Positions 1 through 6,100 of a stretch of 6,100 bases of DNA are shown piece after piece. Both the position numbers and the translations under genes were made by a program. Position 1 is the first letter of the stretch; each line of letters opens with the position of its first letter. This stretch comes from Candidatus Delongbacteria bacterium. Its GTDB lineage: Bacteria > Delongbacteria > UBA4055. The notes beneath the pieces were generated by a model. The model was not told the origin of the DNA. It saw only the letters and a list, made by a program, of their open reading frames with translations, and made no database searches. The DNA lies in contig JAQICF010000104.1 of assembly GCA_027858795.1 (NCBI GenBank), forward strand, positions 1-6,100, written 5' to 3'.

Positions 1-3
1 ATT

Positions 4-25
4 ACAAGGGGTTGAAACCCCTTGT
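4..25. repeat. Perfect 10-bp inverted repeat; possible terminator after the permease gene
   Basis: ACAAGGGGTT at 4-13 is exactly complementary to AACCCCTTGT at 16-25, giving a stable hairpin with a very short loop. It lies about 120 nt beyond the permease stop. On the minus strand the stem is followed only by AAT before the window ends, so a U-tract cannot be judged. It could be a terminator of the operon or another member of the dispersed palindromes that fill this gap. Confidence 0.5.
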
Positions 26-32
26 TCACAAT

Positions 33-65
33 GTCATCCTGAATTTATTTCAGGATCTCTCTTTT
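33..65. repeat. Dispersed short palindrome, copy A (CCTGAA...TTCAGG)
   Basis: An 8-bp stem, ATCCTGAA at 36-43 with TTCAGGAT at 49-56, encloses a 5-nt loop. The whole 33-65 stretch matches 3900-3932 with one mismatch (C59 against T3926), in the same orientation. It looks like a REP-type dispersed repeat. Read as protein such elements give HPEFISGS-like peptides, which I recall as common in spurious ORFs of repeat-bearing genomes. Confidence 0.8.
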
Positions 66-84
66 ATCTTTGTTAATCGTTTTT

Positions 85-109
85 GGGACGACTGTTAGGC
101 GTCCCCTAC
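85..109. repeat. GGGACG/CGTCCC hairpin, copy A
   Basis: GGGACG at 85-90 pairs with CGTCCC at 100-105 around a 9-nt loop, followed by CCTAC. The same arms, at the same 21-nt span, occur at 3944-3964, but the nine inner bases differ. On the minus strand it lies 39 nt past the permease stop and is followed by A-rich rather than T-rich sequence, so it is a poor terminator. Confidence 0.7.
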
Positions 110-111
110 GA

Positions 112-164
112 ACTTACAATTTACAACTTACAACTTATCACTTACAACTAATCACTGACCACTG
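112..164. repeat. Heptamer tandem array overlapping the permease stop codon
   Basis: Seven consecutive 7-nt units start at 112, 119, 126, 133, 140, 147 and 154: ACTTACA, ATTTACA, ACTTACA, ACTTATC, ACTTACA, ACTAATC, ACTGACC, then a partial ACTG at 161. It resembles short tandemly repeated heptamers known from cyanobacteria and some other bacteria. The TAG stop of the permease (148-150) and its last four codons are inside the array. Confidence 0.8.
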
Positions 165-3100
165 TTTTCTTCTCTTTTTTCAATGTTTCAAACATTACTG
201 GTAAAATTATAAGAATCAACATTGTCGCAGCAGATAATCCAAATATCACCGTAACAGCTAAAGGTTTTCGTATCTCTGAAGATCCACCCCATCCTATTGC
301 CATCGGGATCATACCAAATACAGTTGATACCGTTGTCATTAGTATTGGTCTTAACCTTTTCTTACTTGCTTCAATGATTGCATCTCTGATAGATAAACCT
401 GCTTTCACTCCGTTCTCAATAAAGTCAATTTTAACAATAGCATCATTCACTACAATTCCGATCAGCATTATCATGCCTATTCCTGAAAGAATGTTAAATG
501 ACTGCCCTGTTAAGAACAATCCTATTGTTACTCCGATAAAAGCAAAAGGAACACTAAATACTATTATGAACGGACTGAGTAATGATTCGAACTGTGATGC
601 CAGTACCATATAAACCAATACGAAAGATAATAAGAACATGAAGATGATCTGCTGCATTGATTCCTGCATTTCACTGTTCTGACCACCGATCACCAGCCTC
701 ATTCCCTTATAAAGCTGAATTTCTGAGAGTTTCTTCTCTACGTCAGCTATTACCTTATCAAATCTACCCTCAACTATATTGGAAGTGATCGTAAATACTC
801 TATTTTGGCTTTCATGCTTGATCGCCTCAGGACCATTTACATAATTTATCGTTACTAACCTATCAAGGGGTATTACTAGATCGTTCTTATTGTATACTGT
901 TTTTAGAACATTCTTTATATTCTGTCCAAGTTCATCATTCGTACCCACAATAATATCAACTGGTTTATTATTTTCTGTTATCTGAACTGCCATTTCTCCT
1001 TTTATTATGGTCTTGATAAAATCAGAAATTTCCTGCTTTGACAAATTATAATCTTCAAGCAACTTGGTGTTGAATTCTATCTGTATCTGAGGTTTGTTTC
1101 CTGAAAAGTCCGATTTAACTTCACTTAAATTATCCAGATTTTTTAATTCCTGCATAACATTTTCAGAGATCTCTATCAGGTTTTCAAGATTGTTACCTGA
1201 TATCTTCACACTTATATCACCTTGCTCAGGTTTTATCATTTCACCGAGTATAGATACATCAGTATTTATATTCAACTTGATATCAGAGTCCATACTTGAG
1301 TTGTAGCTGGACAAATTTGGTCTAAGTTTATTAATGAATTTCTTTGTCGAAATATTATTTTCCAGCTTTACTTGAATATCGCCCTTATATACTGTTGCAC
1401 CCGTAAGTAACGATTTTTCATCATAGATACCACCGGTTGAGAACAATGAAACAACTCCATCCATATTCTCGATCATATTTTCATAGTCGGTTATAATTTT
1501 CTCTGTTCTGAAAATACTTGTTCCAGGATTCAGTTCAATAGATAGTATAAATTCATGACTGTCAACATCAGGCATCATTCGTTTTTCAATACCCAATGAT
1601 ATCAATAGAGAAACTACGAGAATTCCAAATGCAAGTGTTAAGGTAATCATCTTATTGTCCAATGCTTTTAGAAGTACAATATGATATTTTTCTTCGAACC
1701 AAGCATAAGACTTATCGAATGCAACCAGTATAGGTTTTGAAATAAAAAGAACAAATTTGACAAATATTTTGCCCCAGAAGACAAATAATCCTATAAAAAT
1801 TCCAACTGAGCCAAAGGTCACTACTTTTAAGAATTTTCTTATCCTTGTTAAATAGAATACTTTCTTAATCAGTTCTTTGTCAGCTTTGTAGAATTTTGCA
1901 GGATTAAATAGACCAAACAGGTTTATTACAAATACTATTCCACCAAGTATATACGCATAAAGCATGAATCCATTTGTGCTTAATTCTTCCTCATAAGGTT
2001 GAAGTAGATCATTTATGAATGTTGAAATATCATATAGGAAATTATCCACTGTATCTATTAGGAAAGATATATCTGTCAAGGATATCAACTGATGCAATGG
2101 TTCAAAATAATCTATCTTGGTTATAAATGCTGCAGGTATGCTGAGCAATATAATTACTATCATCCAAATAAAATTTATTAAATAGAAATTCACCTTTGTT
2201 TTTATATTCAGATCCTTGTTCTTACCAATAAAAAATTCAATCGATTTCAATATTGGATCCGTCATCAGTGCTAAAAATAATACATATACAAGTGCATGCT
2301 CATCAATAGGAATCTTGCTTATCTTCACTATGATGAAGAATATTGCTATCATTATAGCCCAATATATTCCCGTTTTGAACACAACGCCGTTGTCACTTAT
2401 TACACTTTTATCTTCTGTAGTGATTTCCTTTTTTTCCATTGAGAATTTTGAATAAAGTACTGGAACTAATGTCAGAGATACGAACAATGAGCTTATCAAA
2501 GCAAATGCAACGGATATCGATTGATCCTTGAAAAGAACTCCTGCTGCACCAGAAACAAATATTACCGGCATGAATACGATTATTGTCGTAAATGTAGATG
2601 CAGAAACTGGTAGGATAACCTCTTTTACACCGTCGTAACAGGCATCAAATATTTTCTTTCCAAGATTCCGATGCCGGGTAATATTTTCTAACACGACGAT
2701 GGAATTATCCACCAGCATACCTATTCCGAGAGCAAATCCTGACAATGACATTAGATTCAATGATATTTTAGAAAAATATAATAATGAGAATGTTGCAAAT
2801 ATACTTATAGGCATCGCCAGTGATATATTCAATGGTGACTTAAAATCTCTGAGGAATAAGAACAAAGTTAAGAATGATAGAATTCCACCGAGCAATATAG
2901 CTGTCACAACATTATTGATAGACTCTGAAATAAAATCTGACTGATCGTAAACAATATTAAGTTTTACATCAAGGGTTTCTTTAAATTCTTCCATTACTTC
3001 CTTAACTAATCCTGATACTATCACAGCATTTGCATCTCCATCCTTACGGATCAGAATACCTGTCGAATTTTCTCCATTGTATCGGGTGAAAGATTTTTTC

Positions 3101-3885
3101 TCTTTGTCTGAGTAACCAACTTCTGCTACATCCTTAATGTATATATTTCTCTTATTTGAAAGCTGTTTTACTAAAGTATTTTCAATGTCTGATAGGTTCG
3201 TGATCTCCGATGAAATCACAAGATCATAGATATATACGTCATCCTTTACAGTACCGCCTGATGAATTTGTATTGGCACTTTTCACAGCATTTGTCAGAGT
3301 AGTAAATGATATCCCGAACGAGTTGAGTTTGTCAATATCTGCTTCAACTCTGATCTCAACTTCTTCCCCGCCTATCACATCTGCCATCGCAACACCGTCT
3401 ATCTGCTCAATTCTCTTCTTGATAATATGCTCAGAAACATCCCTTGCAGCTTTTGTGTCTTTTCCGGTCACGGATAGGATCATTATCGGCTTTTTACCTG
3501 GGTCAATACGGAGTATATTCGGTCTTTCTGCTGTTTCGGGTAAAGCTGCAGCATCAAGTTTCTCTCTGAGGTATAGAACAGTAAAATCCATATCCGTTCC
3601 CCAAATAAAATCTATGGTTATAAGACTTATATCTTCCTTTGATTCAGATTTTATACTCTTAATACCTTTTAAACCTGCAATTGAGGCTTCCAATGGTTCG
3701 GTGAGAAGTCTTTCTATCTCTTCAGGGCTACTTCCTTCCATCTCTGTCCAAACGGTTACAGATGGGTATTTTATGTCTGGTAATAGATTTACTGGTAATT
3801 TATTATACGATATGATACCGAACACTGTCACAGCAGTGAATATCATTATTATCGTTATAGGTCTTAGAAGTATATTTTTAAGCAT
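148..3885 (-). CDS. RND efflux permease (AcrB/HAE1-like) with an extra multi-helix membrane insertion
   Basis: This is the inner-membrane proton-driven pump subunit of a tripartite efflux system, and its substrate cannot be told from sequence. The 1245 residues exceed the usual 1030-1050. In order: TM1 about 9-29; first periplasmic porter loop about 30-320; TM2-TM6 about 326-478; an extra hydrophobic block about 482-722; TM7 about 746-766; second periplasmic loop about 767-1075; TM8-TM12 about 1077-1232. The first loop has the family wording KLPVNLLPDI, SPEEIERLLTEPLE and GxxxI. TM4 carries GMLVDNSIVVLEN, with the proton-relay Asp at 393 and Asn at 394 where AcrB has a second Asp. TM10 has GIVVNDAIVKIDF (about 1143-1155). 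The start is supported by a GAGG Shine-Dalgarno 8 nt upstream. The last four residues (VVSD) and the TAG stop lie in a heptamer repeat array. The RND family call is secure; the specific subfamily is uncertain. Confidence 0.96.
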   Translation of the reverse strand: MLKNILLRPITIIMIFTAVTVFGIISYNKLPVNLLPDIKYPSVTVWTEMEGSSPEEIERLLTEPLEASIAGLKGIKSIKSESKEDISLITIDFIWGTDMDFTVLYLREKLDAAALPETAERPNILRIDPGKKPIMILSVTGKDTKAARDVSEHIIKKRIEQIDGVAMADVIGGEEVEIRVEADIDKLNSFGISFTTLTNAVKSANTNSSGGTVKDDVYIYDLVISSEITNLSDIENTLVKQLSNKRNIYIKDVAEVGYSDKEKKSFTRYNGENSTGILIRKDGDANAVIVSGLVKEVMEEFKETLDVKLNIVYDQSDFISESINNVVTAILLGGILSFLTLFLFLRDFKSPLNISLAMPISIFATFSLLYFSKISLNLMSLSGFALGIGMLVDNSIVVLENITRHRNLGKKIFDACYDGVKEVILPVSASTFTTIIVFMPVIFVSGAAGVLFKDQSISVAFALISSLFVSLTLVPVLYSKFSMEKKEITTEDKSVISDNGVVFKTGIYWAIMIAIFFIIVKISKIPIDEHALVYVLFLALMTDPILKSIEFFIGKNKDLNIKTKVNFYLINFIWMIVIILLSIPAAFITKIDYFEPLHQLISLTDISFLIDTVDNFLYDISTFINDLLQPYEEELSTNGFMLYAYILGGIVFVINLFGLFNPAKFYKADKELIKKVFYLTRIRKFLKVVTFGSVGIFIGLFVFWGKIFVKFVLFISKPILVAFDKSYAWFEEKYHIVLLKALDNKMITLTLAFGILVVSLLISLGIEKRMMPDVDSHEFILSIELNPGTSIFRTEKIITDYENMIENMDGVVSLFSTGGIYDEKSLLTGATVYKGDIQVKLENNISTKKFINKLRPNLSSYNSSMDSDIKLNINTDVSILGEMIKPEQGDISVKISGNNLENLIEISENVMQELKNLDNLSEVKSDFSGNKPQIQIEFNTKLLEDYNLSKQEISDFIKTIIKGEMAVQITENNKPVDIIVGTNDELGQNIKNVLKTVYNKNDLVIPLDRLVTINYVNGPEAIKHESQNRVFTITSNIVEGRFDKVIADVEKKLSEIQLYKGMRLVIGGQNSEMQESMQQIIFMFLLSFVLVYMVLASQFESLLSPFIIVFSVPFAFIGVTIGLFLTGQSFNILSGIGMIMLIGIVVNDAIVKIDFIENGVKAGLSIRDAIIEASKKRLRPILMTTVSTVFGMIPMAIGWGGSSEIRKPLAVTVIFGLSAATMLILIILPVMFETLKKEKKTVVSD
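1720..2442 (-). other. Extra membrane domain inserted between TM6 and TM7 of the RND permease
   Basis: Residues about 482-722 separate the end of TM6 (LVPVLYSKF) from the FDKSYAWFEEKY segment that normally shortly precedes TM7. In ordinary RND permeases this cytoplasmic connection is only some tens of residues. Here it holds hydrophobic stretches at about 503-521, 529-547, 566-588, 639-660, 686-704 and 708-724. The linkers at 553-565 and 662-688 are rich in Lys and Arg, while 591-640 has ten acidic residues and no Lys or Arg. By the positive-inside rule this fits six helices that leave and re-enter the cytoplasm, preserving the topology of the second RND half. The reading frame is intact and both RND halves are complete. 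The domain has no recognised identity, and the helix count is estimated by eye. Confidence 0.75.
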
Positions 3886-3899: not shown

Positions 3900-3932
3900 G
3901 TCATCCTGAATTTATTTCAGGATCTTTCTTTT
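3900..3932. repeat. Dispersed short palindrome, copy B (CCTGAA...TTCAGG)
   Basis: This is the second copy of the 33-65 element in the same orientation, 3867 nt away, with 32 of 33 bases identical. The stem arms are 3903-3910 and 3916-3923. It lies in the leader of the permease gene, immediately next to its ribosome binding site. Confidence 0.8.
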
Positions 3933-3942
3933 TTTTTAAAGA

Positions 3943-3979: not shown

Positions 3980-5170
3980 TTACTTAAACATTTGCATAAT
4001 TACTTGAAAACCTCCCGGGATACATAACAAACAGTATAGTATTAAAAATATCCCTACGCACACTCTCTTAACATGTGCGACATTGTCTTCCACAAAAACA
4101 TATCCTGCCAAAATTGCTAAACCGAAGAATCCGCCGACTATAAAGACCGGCCAACCAATTAAGTAATGAATAGCTTCCATCCACGCACCATAATTGGGAT
4201 TTGTCCCTACTAATACAATCCAACTACCCCAGAATAGGCACGATCCAAAGAATAATATATAAAGCATATATTCAATTCGATTCTTATTTTCCTTATTCTC
4301 ACTAATCTTGCTACCAAAATTATCAATTTTTTTCTTCAATATTTCAGGAACTAGGAACAAATATTTATATATCATTGATTTAACTAAACTTTTCTTACTC
4401 GATCTAAAATGTTCATTAATTGCTTCATCGACCAGATCATTATAATTCTGTATAACAGGTGCAGGATCTTTATAACCAAGATAGAATTTATACTTGTCAT
4501 ACACTGTTTCATGAGGAATATCTTCTAATCCTAATTCAAAATCATATTCAAGGACATCTAAACCGTTATCATTGAGAACTTTCACATAATCCTTACCGAA
4601 TTTTCTGTAATTTCCAAGTATTCCATATAATTTAAATCTATCCTTATATGAAGTAAGTGGCATTTCAAGTGTTTTATCTATATTCTCATCAATATTTGCC
4701 TGTAATATTATAAAACCATCTGAAGTAATTATCCTGTTTAACTCTTTGATCACCATTTTGTAAGACGGTAATTTTTCCAGAACATAATTGCAGATTATTA
4801 CGTCAAAATGATCGTCAGGATATTTATCTCTCAGTTCTTCATCTCTGATAGAAAAATCACCTGTAACATTAAATATCTTAACTTCAGTATTTGGAAAATT
4901 CTTAAAATATTCAGTAATTTCATTCTTTTCACTGATGACTAGAATTTTCAACTCACCTTTTAAAAGCTCTGTCCTTGATTGAAGAAATAAAAGAAGTGTC
5001 CGCTCTTCCTTAGAAGATGCACAGATAGGGCAGTAATTACTTTTACCCCCGAATTTCCCGTAGGAATCCATCCTATAAAATTTTCCACAGAACGGGCAGT
5101 ATAATTCATTTCCTGCGAAATAATTCGATTTATACAATTCGTAATTTTCTTTTATTTTCTCAAATGCCAT
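3980..5170 (-). CDS. Zinc-ribbon, class I methyltransferase-like protein with C-terminal membrane helices
   Basis: The 396 residues divide into three parts. Residues 25-50 form a probable zinc ribbon, with CPFC at 25-28 and CPIC at 47-50. Residues about 72-215 resemble a class I SAM-dependent methyltransferase of the kind that follows a CPxC ribbon: a first strand at 74-80 (LKILVIS), the FDVIICNYVLEKLP strand at 122-135, a helix with ELNRII, the DGFIILQ strand at 151-157, and a later FGKDYVKVLNDNGLDV segment at 191-206. Residues about 301-322, 338-360 and 369-389 are hydrophobic and look like three membrane helices, preceded by a basic helix at 255-290. The glycine-rich SAM loop is absent and expected His residues appear replaced, so activity is doubtful. 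The start has AAGG 6 nt upstream. It lies between the adaptor and permease genes of an efflux locus. Substrate is unknown. Confidence 0.8.
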   Translation of the reverse strand: MAFEKIKENYELYKSNYFAGNELYCPFCGKFYRMDSYGKFGGKSNYCPICASSKEERTLLLFLQSRTELLKGELKILVISEKNEITEYFKNFPNTEVKIFNVTGDFSIRDEELRDKYPDDHFDVIICNYVLEKLPSYKMVIKELNRIITSDGFIILQANIDENIDKTLEMPLTSYKDRFKLYGILGNYRKFGKDYVKVLNDNGLDVLEYDFELGLEDIPHETVYDKYKFYLGYKDPAPVIQNYNDLVDEAINEHFRSSKKSLVKSMIYKYLFLVPEILKKKIDNFGSKISENKENKNRIEYMLYILFFGSCLFWGSWIVLVGTNPNYGAWMEAIHYLIGWPVFIVGGFFGLAILAGYVFVEDNVAHVKRVCVGIFLILYCLLCIPGGFQVIMQMFK

Positions 5171-5281: not shown

Positions 5282-6100
5282 TTAATTAATTACCTTTACA
5301 TCCGCGTCATGCGCTAACGTGTAATTATTCGTAATTACAACATCATCTCCAAGCTTCAACTTAGGATCTTTCTCGTCAAGGATTATTTCAGTAAAATTAA
5401 AATTCGAAAGTCCTGTATTAACATATACCCATTTAGCCTTCTCATCTTGAACTATGAATACCAATTTTCTATTATCTCTGGTAAGAATAGCTTCATTTGG
5501 TACAATTATTTTGTCGAAATAAATCTTACTTTCAATTTTAACATTTCCACGCATACCAGATTTGATCCTTAGATCACCATTAGGAATGTTAACTAATACT
5601 TTACAAGTACCTGTATTCTCATCAATTATCGGAGAAATAGTTTCAATAATTCCATTGAAAACGACATCTTTCAGAGCTTCGAACTTTACTTCGACCTTTC
5701 TATCATCAGTAAGATCACCAACTTCACTTTCTAAAACAGGTATCTCCATTTCGATCATCTTATAATCAACAATGGTCATTGCTTTATTCCCTGTATTGAA
5801 ATGCTGTCCTTTTACAATACTTAGATCTGCAATGTATCCTGACGAAGGTGCTCTAACTGTTGCATATTCATAATCAAGTTTAGCTTTTTTGTAGCTTATC
5901 ATAGCTTGAGTTAAACCAGTTGAAGATTTTAATACTTCAACGCTTCCACCCTGATTGAAAATAAGATCAACTTCAAGTTCGAGCTTTTGATCTTCATATT
6001 CCTTTTCACTAATATTTCCGATTCTTCTCTGTTCTTTCAATTTATTTAATTCTTCATTGAATTTTTTATCATTGGCTGCTGTACTTTGATCTTTTATCTC
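5282..6100 (-). CDS. Periplasmic adaptor (membrane fusion protein, HlyD/AcrA family), 5' end outside the window
   Basis: The frame is open to the right edge, so only the C-terminal 272 residues are seen; the true start, any signal peptide and the first half of the lipoyl domain lie outside. Visible residues 1-75 are charged and helical, as expected for the coiled-coil hairpin that contacts the outer-membrane channel (KLKEQRRIGNISEKEYEDQ). Residues about 76-113 are the second lipoyl half, with YATVRAPSSGYIADLSIVKG, the family signature. Residues 114-190 fit the beta-barrel (SGMRGNVKIE near its end). Residues 195-272 fit the membrane-proximal domain, with IVPNEAILTRDN. The protein would link the RND permease to a TolC-like channel. 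A TTG at 6038-6040 could be read as a start, but the upstream codons continue the coiled coil without a stop, so it is internal. It ends 111 nt before the methyltransferase-like gene. Confidence 0.93.
   Translation of the reverse strand, partial: EIKDQSTAANDKKFNEELNKLKEQRRIGNISEKEYEDQKLELEVDLIFNQGGSVEVLKSSTGLTQAMISYKKAKLDYEYATVRAPSSGYIADLSIVKGQHFNTGNKAMTIVDYKMIEMEIPVLESEVGDLTDDRKVEVKFEALKDVVFNGIIETISPIIDENTGTCKVLVNIPNGDLRIKSGMRGNVKIESKIYFDKIIVPNEAILTRDNRKLVFIVQDEKAKWVYVNTGLSNFNFTEIILDEKDPKLKLGDDVVITNNYTLAHDADVKVIN

Follow-up and report, generated by a model that had tools for sequence, protein, structure and literature searches.

The 12-helix architecture of RND pumps is commonly regarded as fixed. 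In AcrB, as described in passages of one structural account, helix I-alpha sits between TM6 and TM7, and the halves of the RND membrane part make a rocking movement relative to one another (PMC8277102). In passages of a study of MdtB and MdtC the two permeases are given unequal roles, with the proton relay falling mainly to MdtB and the substrate to MdtC (PMC4338810), and in passages of another report AcrZ attaches to AcrB in its membrane part and, in combination with cardiolipin, changes how drugs enter and are bound (PMC7267776). Can such a design be enlarged from within, and at what place? The permease described here is of a known RND kind with an added membrane domain, one that is matched by none of the libraries tried. 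Its source, Delongbacteria, is a little-known bacterial phylum, in which, as judged from sequence, one of the two permeases of a paired efflux pump appears to be enlarged by a conserved domain.

The RND1 permease and its gene neighbourhood

The window, that is, the whole stretch of 6,100 nucleotides of Candidatus Delongbacteria DNA that was analysed, carries on its minus strand an open frame at 148-3885 that encodes an intact RND permease (RND1) of 1245 aa with 0 internal stops. Pfam ACR_tran (PF00873) matched RND1 in two stretches, in both halves, at 747.3 bits against a cut-off of 28, and phmmer aligned residues 5-482 with 16-499 of the chain of solved MdtB and residues 734-1232 with 525-1019. 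The first half (residues 1-482; 2440-3885, minus strand; ACR_tran match 2-487) comprises TM1-TM6 and the first porter part, and the second (residues 741-1245 plus the stop; 148-1665, minus strand) comprises TM7-TM12; like those of the HAE1-type permeases AcrB and MdtB, both RND halves of RND1 are complete and include porter domains. Unlike MdtB, which has 25 residues between the matched halves, RND1 has 251. An earlier note had described two complete halves in one frame, parted between TM6 and TM7 by about 240 residues rich in hydrophobic stretches, and this observation of a large insertion between the RND halves is confirmed. HAE1-type permeases have 12 TM helices and a short TM6-TM7 link with helix I-alpha, an arrangement from which RND1 departs, being nevertheless matched over both RND halves despite at least four added hydrophobic helices. 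By the curated NCBIfam cut-offs RND1 passed for none of the 19 families listed, and its best score was that of NF033617, at 623.6 bits against a cut-off of 1250.

RND1 has D393 in TM4 and R1179 in TM11, which would correspond to AcrB D407 and R971 on the basis of motif and the MdtB alignment rather than of a computed AcrB alignment. Unlike AcrB, which has D407-D408 and K940 at these TM4 and TM10 places in passages of the structural account (PMC8277102), RND1 reads VDN in TM4 and, among its relatives with the insertion, VND or VNN in TM10. Across 25 such carriers the proton-relay places read VDN, VND (22 of 25) or VNN (3 of 25), and R in 24 of 25, the one other sequence being cut there. These places read much alike in four insert-free relatives and two copies of the neighbouring permease described below, so the carriers are not set apart by them.

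Upstream of RND1 lies the gene for an RND periplasmic adaptor (5282-6100, minus strand, its 5' end cut by the window), which was recognised by TIGR01730 RND_mfp at 120.1 bits against a cut-off of 94.9 and by HlyD_D23. In the loci compared with L002 the adaptor likewise precedes RND1, and a second, ordinary RND permease (RND2) follows directly. All 10 Delongbacteria loci that extend past RND1 have RND2 directly after it, with a gap of -8 to +109 nt; the window, L001 and L030 stop short of that position, so that RND2 falls outside the window. The linker between TM6 and TM7 measured 19-20 residues in two copies of RND2. Eight of the 10 longer loci (L028 and L029 excepted) have a TolC-like gene nearby, and thus, as in HAE1-type systems, an adaptor and usually a TolC-like gene lie near RND1. 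Like MdtABC-type pumps, the locus combines a single adaptor gene with two neighbouring RND genes differing in sequence, an arrangement seen in 10 of the 10 loci extending past RND1; unlike in those pumps, only RND1 is enlarged. From gene order alone we infer an MdtBC-like mixed trimer of RND1 and RND2. In Stygiobacter (L003) the order is RND1, adaptor, RND2, and the block is missing.

Between the adaptor and RND1 the window has a methyltransferase-like gene (3980-5170, minus strand; Methyltransf_11, 26.7 bits against a cut-off of 21.2). It holds this position in four loci only, namely the window, L001, L002 and L021, and stands farther upstream in L023 and L025; because the gene is limited to close relatives, its product is probably not a core pump part. 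By eye, the protein has C-terminal hydrophobic segments and N-terminal cysteine pairs that look like a zinc ribbon. Of the 10 longer loci, 8 have a propeller-like gene close to the pump genes, with a lipoprotein-like start containing Cys (L002 2150-3304, L021-L027); in L022-L026 it is followed by genes that by eye resemble those of glycosyltransferases. The window also has a palindrome-bearing intergenic repeat (GTCATCCTGAATTTATTTCAGGATC...) at 33-70 and 3900-3937, the copies 92% alike, the first 26 bases of which recur in L001, L002 and L021; it looks like a REP-type element. The same terminal inverted repeat (AAGGGGTTTCAACCCCTT) occurs in window 1-147 and in L001 (JAQIDB010000075.1), just before the expected RND2.

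Extent and predicted structure of the insertion

Averaged over 18 sequences, the block has hydropathy peaks at residues 502-520, 531-549, 567-585, 642-660 and 685-703, all of at least 1.67, and weak peaks at 599-617 (1.19) and 705-723 (1.10). The five strong peaks are not in themselves remarkable, since 181 of 2000 shuffles reach five and composition alone could explain the count; the case for the insert is therefore carried by conservation, charge pattern and structure prediction. With regard to charge, residues 591-640 of the window protein contain 0 K/R and 10 D/E, although a strict lack of K/R in this stretch is seen in just 4 of the 25 carriers, a few such residues being found in the others. 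This is the segment described as basic-free in the earlier note. In 25 of 25 carriers K+R residues are denser in the loops presumed to be cytoplasmic than in the periplasmic loops.

The insert was modelled with AlphaFold over residues 478-738 from an alignment of 20 sequences, giving an all-helical prediction with pLDDT 76.5 and pTM 0.56, in which helices are placed at 501-522, 529-553, 561-589, 595-604, 607-656, 662-666, 670-676 and 678-737, and the tether at 478-499 scores a pLDDT under 50. A near-full AlphaFold model of residues 36-1235, which leaves out TM1, repeats the elements of the insert model closely, with helices including 607-660 and one at 680-743, and is too poor for placing the module (pLDDT 59.9, pTM 0.43).

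When these lines are combined, a succession of segments can be proposed, all on the minus strand. Added TM a (residues 501-522; 2320-2385), supported by the model helix and the peak at 502-520, has the invariant residues G506, Y508 and W509; added TM b (529-553; 2227-2301) has invariant D543 and added TM c (561-589; 2119-2205) invariant P584, both likewise supported by hydropathy, model helices and the invariant residues. There follows an acidic, presumably periplasmic helical segment (590-640; 1966-2118), delimited by charge and by the model helices 595-604 and 607-656, within which F594-E595-P596 and E632-E633-x3-T637 are invariant in the 25 carriers. Added TM d (about 640-660; 1906-1968) is placed by the peak at 642-660, the model helix starting already at 607. 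A long linker helix (678-740; 1666-1854) then leads into TM7.

This last element bears on how many helices have been added. The stretch 676-725 was compared with the linkers of insert-free relatives, of which 18 of 84 outscore every shuffled control and 66 do not, the best real linker scoring 26.6 bits and the best shuffled control 8.6 bits (420 shuffles made, 406 scored). Residues 678-740, a single helix in both models, look like an inherited linker helix, and from sequence likeness and prediction this would occupy a place equivalent to I-alpha of AcrB. Since this part is predicted as one long helix and resembles insert-free linkers, the new part is likelier to be residues about 483-675 (1861-2439, minus strand), with four clear TM helices and the acidic, presumably periplasmic segment, and a total of 16 TM helices is likelier than 18; the same limits agree with linkers of at most 127 residues in 94 non-carriers and with conservation in 25 carriers. 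The earlier figure of about six added helices and 18 in total is not upheld and is probably two too many, as four are clear. For the higher figure to be correct, with six TM helices in 483-740, residues 685-723 would have to form a hairpin instead of one helix. The peaks at 685-703 (1.75) and 705-723 (1.10) are in its favour, and the number of crossings must be even, which six fits as does four. Against it, both AlphaFold models, the second of them poor, show one helix of at least 60 residues (678-737; 680-743), and the stretch resembles insert-free linkers, some of which themselves show 1-3 peaks, so that a hairpin is unlikely.

No known domain was recognised in the insert. Pfam searches of 13 insert members gave weak matches to EXPERA, M56, DUF3817 and pre-PUA, the two for which scores are given lying below cut-off. 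The EXPERA/EBP four-helix membrane domain was considered and rejected, with 4 of 13 members matched at E<=1, a best E-value of 0.0069 and 16.6 bits against 25.7 for member 1. A sequence profile of the insert found no PDB match at E<=10, and a Foldseek search of the PDB with the insert model, like a second look with VIA, returned generic helical bundles only, nothing significant. As in the earlier note, the domain was not recognised in these searches of Pfam and of the PDB by sequence and by fold, which is not enough to call its fold new. The insert of the window was also not found in 72,556 plasmid records. Among the solved relatives listed (60 of 83 and 60 of 82 PDB matches) no chain exceeds 1069 residues, and therefore RND proteins with such extra helices are absent among them. 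In the titles and abstract openings of the papers listed, no account was found of extra helices between TM6 and TM7 in RND pumps. MFS pumps of 14 helices, QacA among them, were considered as a parallel and then dropped, the literature passages mentioning no such place of insertion.

Occurrence, inheritance and conservation

A protein search with residues 480-735 gave 18 proteins among 1346 candidates, at 41-100% identity and full coverage, one of them identical to the query over the searched region; the four that bear an organism name are all Candidatus Delongbacteria. From a distant member of the block, two proteins were recovered among 3048 candidates, the query itself and one more. When residues 300-500 were used instead, 7999 candidates were scored, and among the best 120 of 5767 matches there are at least four further carriers (P0025, P0026, P0028 and P0071) together with many insert-free relatives; P0025 is Delongbacteria by name, and the other three have no organism label. 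The block is carried by 13 of 13 Candidatus Delongbacteria genomes examined, with 28-90% identity over the block, and in the alignment of homologues it is kept as a unit in all 25 carriers. These comparisons suggest, and do not prove, that the block is confined to Delongbacteria.

Each of the 13 genomes has one copy, inside an RND1-sized or contig-cut frame, and the module is found in RND1 only. A profile built from 13 copies detected no second or free-standing copy in these genomes at E<=1; its matches there are largely by construction, copies from 12 of the same genomes having gone into the profile, and it is the absence of second copies that is informative. An extra match in G004 (L018, E 0.007), which reads as a TrkH-like potassium transporter and is missing from the profile search, was rejected as a relative of the module. 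With at most six candidates scored per genome, so that absence there is only tentative, the profile gave two weak partial matches in the Stygiobacter phylum (395 genomes) and two in another phylum (398 genomes). All four were judged to be linker helix or noise: L019 covers profile positions 152-251 only, in a 1114-aa frame; L020 covers only 34 positions, where the listed ORFs look unlike an RND; L060 covers positions 199-251 only, in a 1126-aa frame; and the listed ORFs of the L059 region look unlike an RND.

How often was the module acquired? A FastTree phylogeny of 121 sequences, calculated from 962 core columns without the linker and rooted by two RND2 proteins, unites all 25 sequences with a linker of at least 200 residues in a single clade (support 1.0) that includes nothing else, and the 94 non-carrier relatives (RND2 apart) have linkers of 11-127 residues. 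On this tree the module is shown to have been inherited once among the compared sequences. The branch next to the carrier clade is RND1 of Stygiobacter, with a linker of 70 and support of 0.737, which suggests a sister relationship weakly.

In three of the five pairs tried, those with a measurable dS in the block (490-675), its dN/dS is 0.090, 0.058 and 0.074, that of 678-740 is 0.166, 0.057 and 0.039, and that of the TM2-6, TM8-12 and porter regions is 0 to 0.047, values that are rough as dS is about 1 in two of the three pairs. They indicate a block that is clearly constrained by purifying selection and evolves faster than the pump core. Likewise, in P0019 and P0006 identity is 43-55% in the module and 80-87% in the RND membrane core. 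Seventeen residues of 483-737 are invariant in the 25 carriers, 14 of them in 483-675, and they are kept even in carriers that are only about 29% identical to the window in 483-675; some of them are polar and lie outside the helix cores of the module. The added membrane domain put forward in the earlier note, if not its number of helices, thus gains from a conserved unit, monophyletic carriers, purifying selection, an all-helical model and the lack of a recognised domain.

Possible roles of the module

What might such a module do? The reading that we favour, if tentatively, is that RND1 is one of two unequal permeases sharing an adaptor and that the module is a built-in accessory subunit, AcrZ-like in role. 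The unequal roles of MdtB and MdtC, the effect of AcrZ and the rocking of the halves together make a built-in accessory domain the best way to read it. In mechanistic terms, a four-helix membrane module with an acidic, presumably periplasmic helical piece would join the two halves of RND1, packing on the outside of its membrane part and being tethered to TM6 via a loose cytoplasmic stretch and to TM7 via the long linker helix. Fixed where the halves rock against each other, the module would be placed to modulate their motion, the lipid surroundings and the entry of substrate from the membrane, acting much as the separate AcrZ does for AcrB, and would mark RND1 as the non-equivalent subunit of the mixed trimer. 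The likeness to AcrZ is one of proposed role only, that of accessory membrane helices modulating an RND pump, and is not derived from sequence comparison; AcrZ is a small protein of its own, whereas the module is part of RND1, with about four helices and a periplasmic piece. The faster evolution of the module relative to the core would also suit a loosely held domain of minor role.

Extra helices at the TM6-TM7 junction are not confined to RND1. An ACR_tran search of the 13 genomes gave 4-13 matched stretches in each, with the insert-bearing RND1 counted as two, and two further permeases have about 120 residues between TM6 and TM7, with four hydrophobic peaks in L031 (286-4029, minus strand, G005:C124, 1247 aa) and three in L032. 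L031 is closest to CusA/CzcA, its best NCBIfam score being 684.8 bits for TIGR00914, just under the cut-off of 701.45. Among the 395 genomes from the Stygiobacter phylum, 76 gave matches to a query of its 120 insert residues and the 81 that follow; in eight of the 76 only the last 26-31 query residues, beyond the insertion, were covered. In 20 CusA/CzcA-like copies (L036-L055) the linker is 75-145 residues long, mostly 122-125, with 1-3 peaks; the insertion-bearing frames are mostly of 1243-1328 aa, and matches also occur in 5 plasmid records. Like RND1, these proteins have extra hydrophobic helices between TM6 and TM7; unlike RND1, they belong to another branch, and their insertion has no profile similarity to the module (hhalign probability 0.3 over one aligned column, the window profile being shallow with Neff 2.6). 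A different insertion is thus present in CusA-like RNDs of the same phylum and of another. It is possible, if doubtful, that the junction is a recurrent port for unrelated membrane modules, used at least twice independently, in HAE1-like RND1 and in the CusA-like branch, to give 16-helix permeases, and that the Delongbacteria module is a new domain family giving one subunit its own task, for instance taking lipid-like substrates out of the membrane.

The module might alternatively be the place where a separate membrane partner docks, perhaps the neighbouring methyltransferase-like protein or an envelope-building enzyme, which would bring the pump to the source of its substrate. The methyltransferase-like gene, with its hydrophobic C-terminus, between adaptor and RND1 in four loci and upstream in L023 and L025 is in keeping with this, as are the invariant polar residues kept outside the helix cores of the module. 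However, all 13 genomes have the module, and that gene appears in only 6 of the 13 Delongbacteria sources compared, some of them short, and docking seems rather unlikely. It is more improbable still that the module is no more than an assembly device, keeping RND1 and RND2 joined in the proper proportion, with no role in transport. Although its presence in RND1 only, in the 13 genomes, and the adjacency of RND1 and RND2 in 10 of 10 loci extending past RND1 would fit, the Stygiobacter pair (L003) lacks the module, so that pairing of the permeases does not need it, and in passages of the structural account the membrane contact between AcrB protomers is TM1/TM8, not the TM6/TM7 junction (PMC8277102). 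That the insertion is a neutral hydrophobic spacer tolerated at a permissive junction is very unlikely, for although a different insertion at the same place in CusA-like RNDs, the permissiveness implied by linkers of 11-127 residues among 94 non-carriers and a hydrophobic-peak count not beyond composition would suit it, this reading is already weakened by the 14 invariant residues of 483-675 in 25 carriers, some about 29% identical to the window, by dN/dS of 0.058-0.090 and by the module being missing from none of the 13 genomes.

With a built-in accessory domain as the favoured reading, the locus would be a natural setting in which to examine how RND pumps are tuned by accessory membrane parts, as AcrB is by AcrZ. 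A spliced-in membrane domain in 13 of 13 genomes examined of a phylum implies that the RND design is extendable at the hinge between its moving halves, and this may explain the oversized RND proteins, 1240-1330 residues long, which are named simply AcrB or efflux permease. The recurrence in CusA-like pumps makes the case less unique, yet of wider general interest.

Lengthened linkers of lesser extent were also observed. Eight insert-free proteins (P0029, P0031, P0035, P0036, P0039, P0042, P0054, which is candidate division KSB1 by name, and P0056) have linkers of 110-129 residues with 1-3 hydrophobic peaks, which by eye are rich in aromatic residues and of an intermediate type. Two HAE1-like permeases, L034 (G004:C91, 1097 aa) and L035 (G005:C195, 1089 aa), have a lengthened TM6-TM7 linker with one hydrophobic peak.
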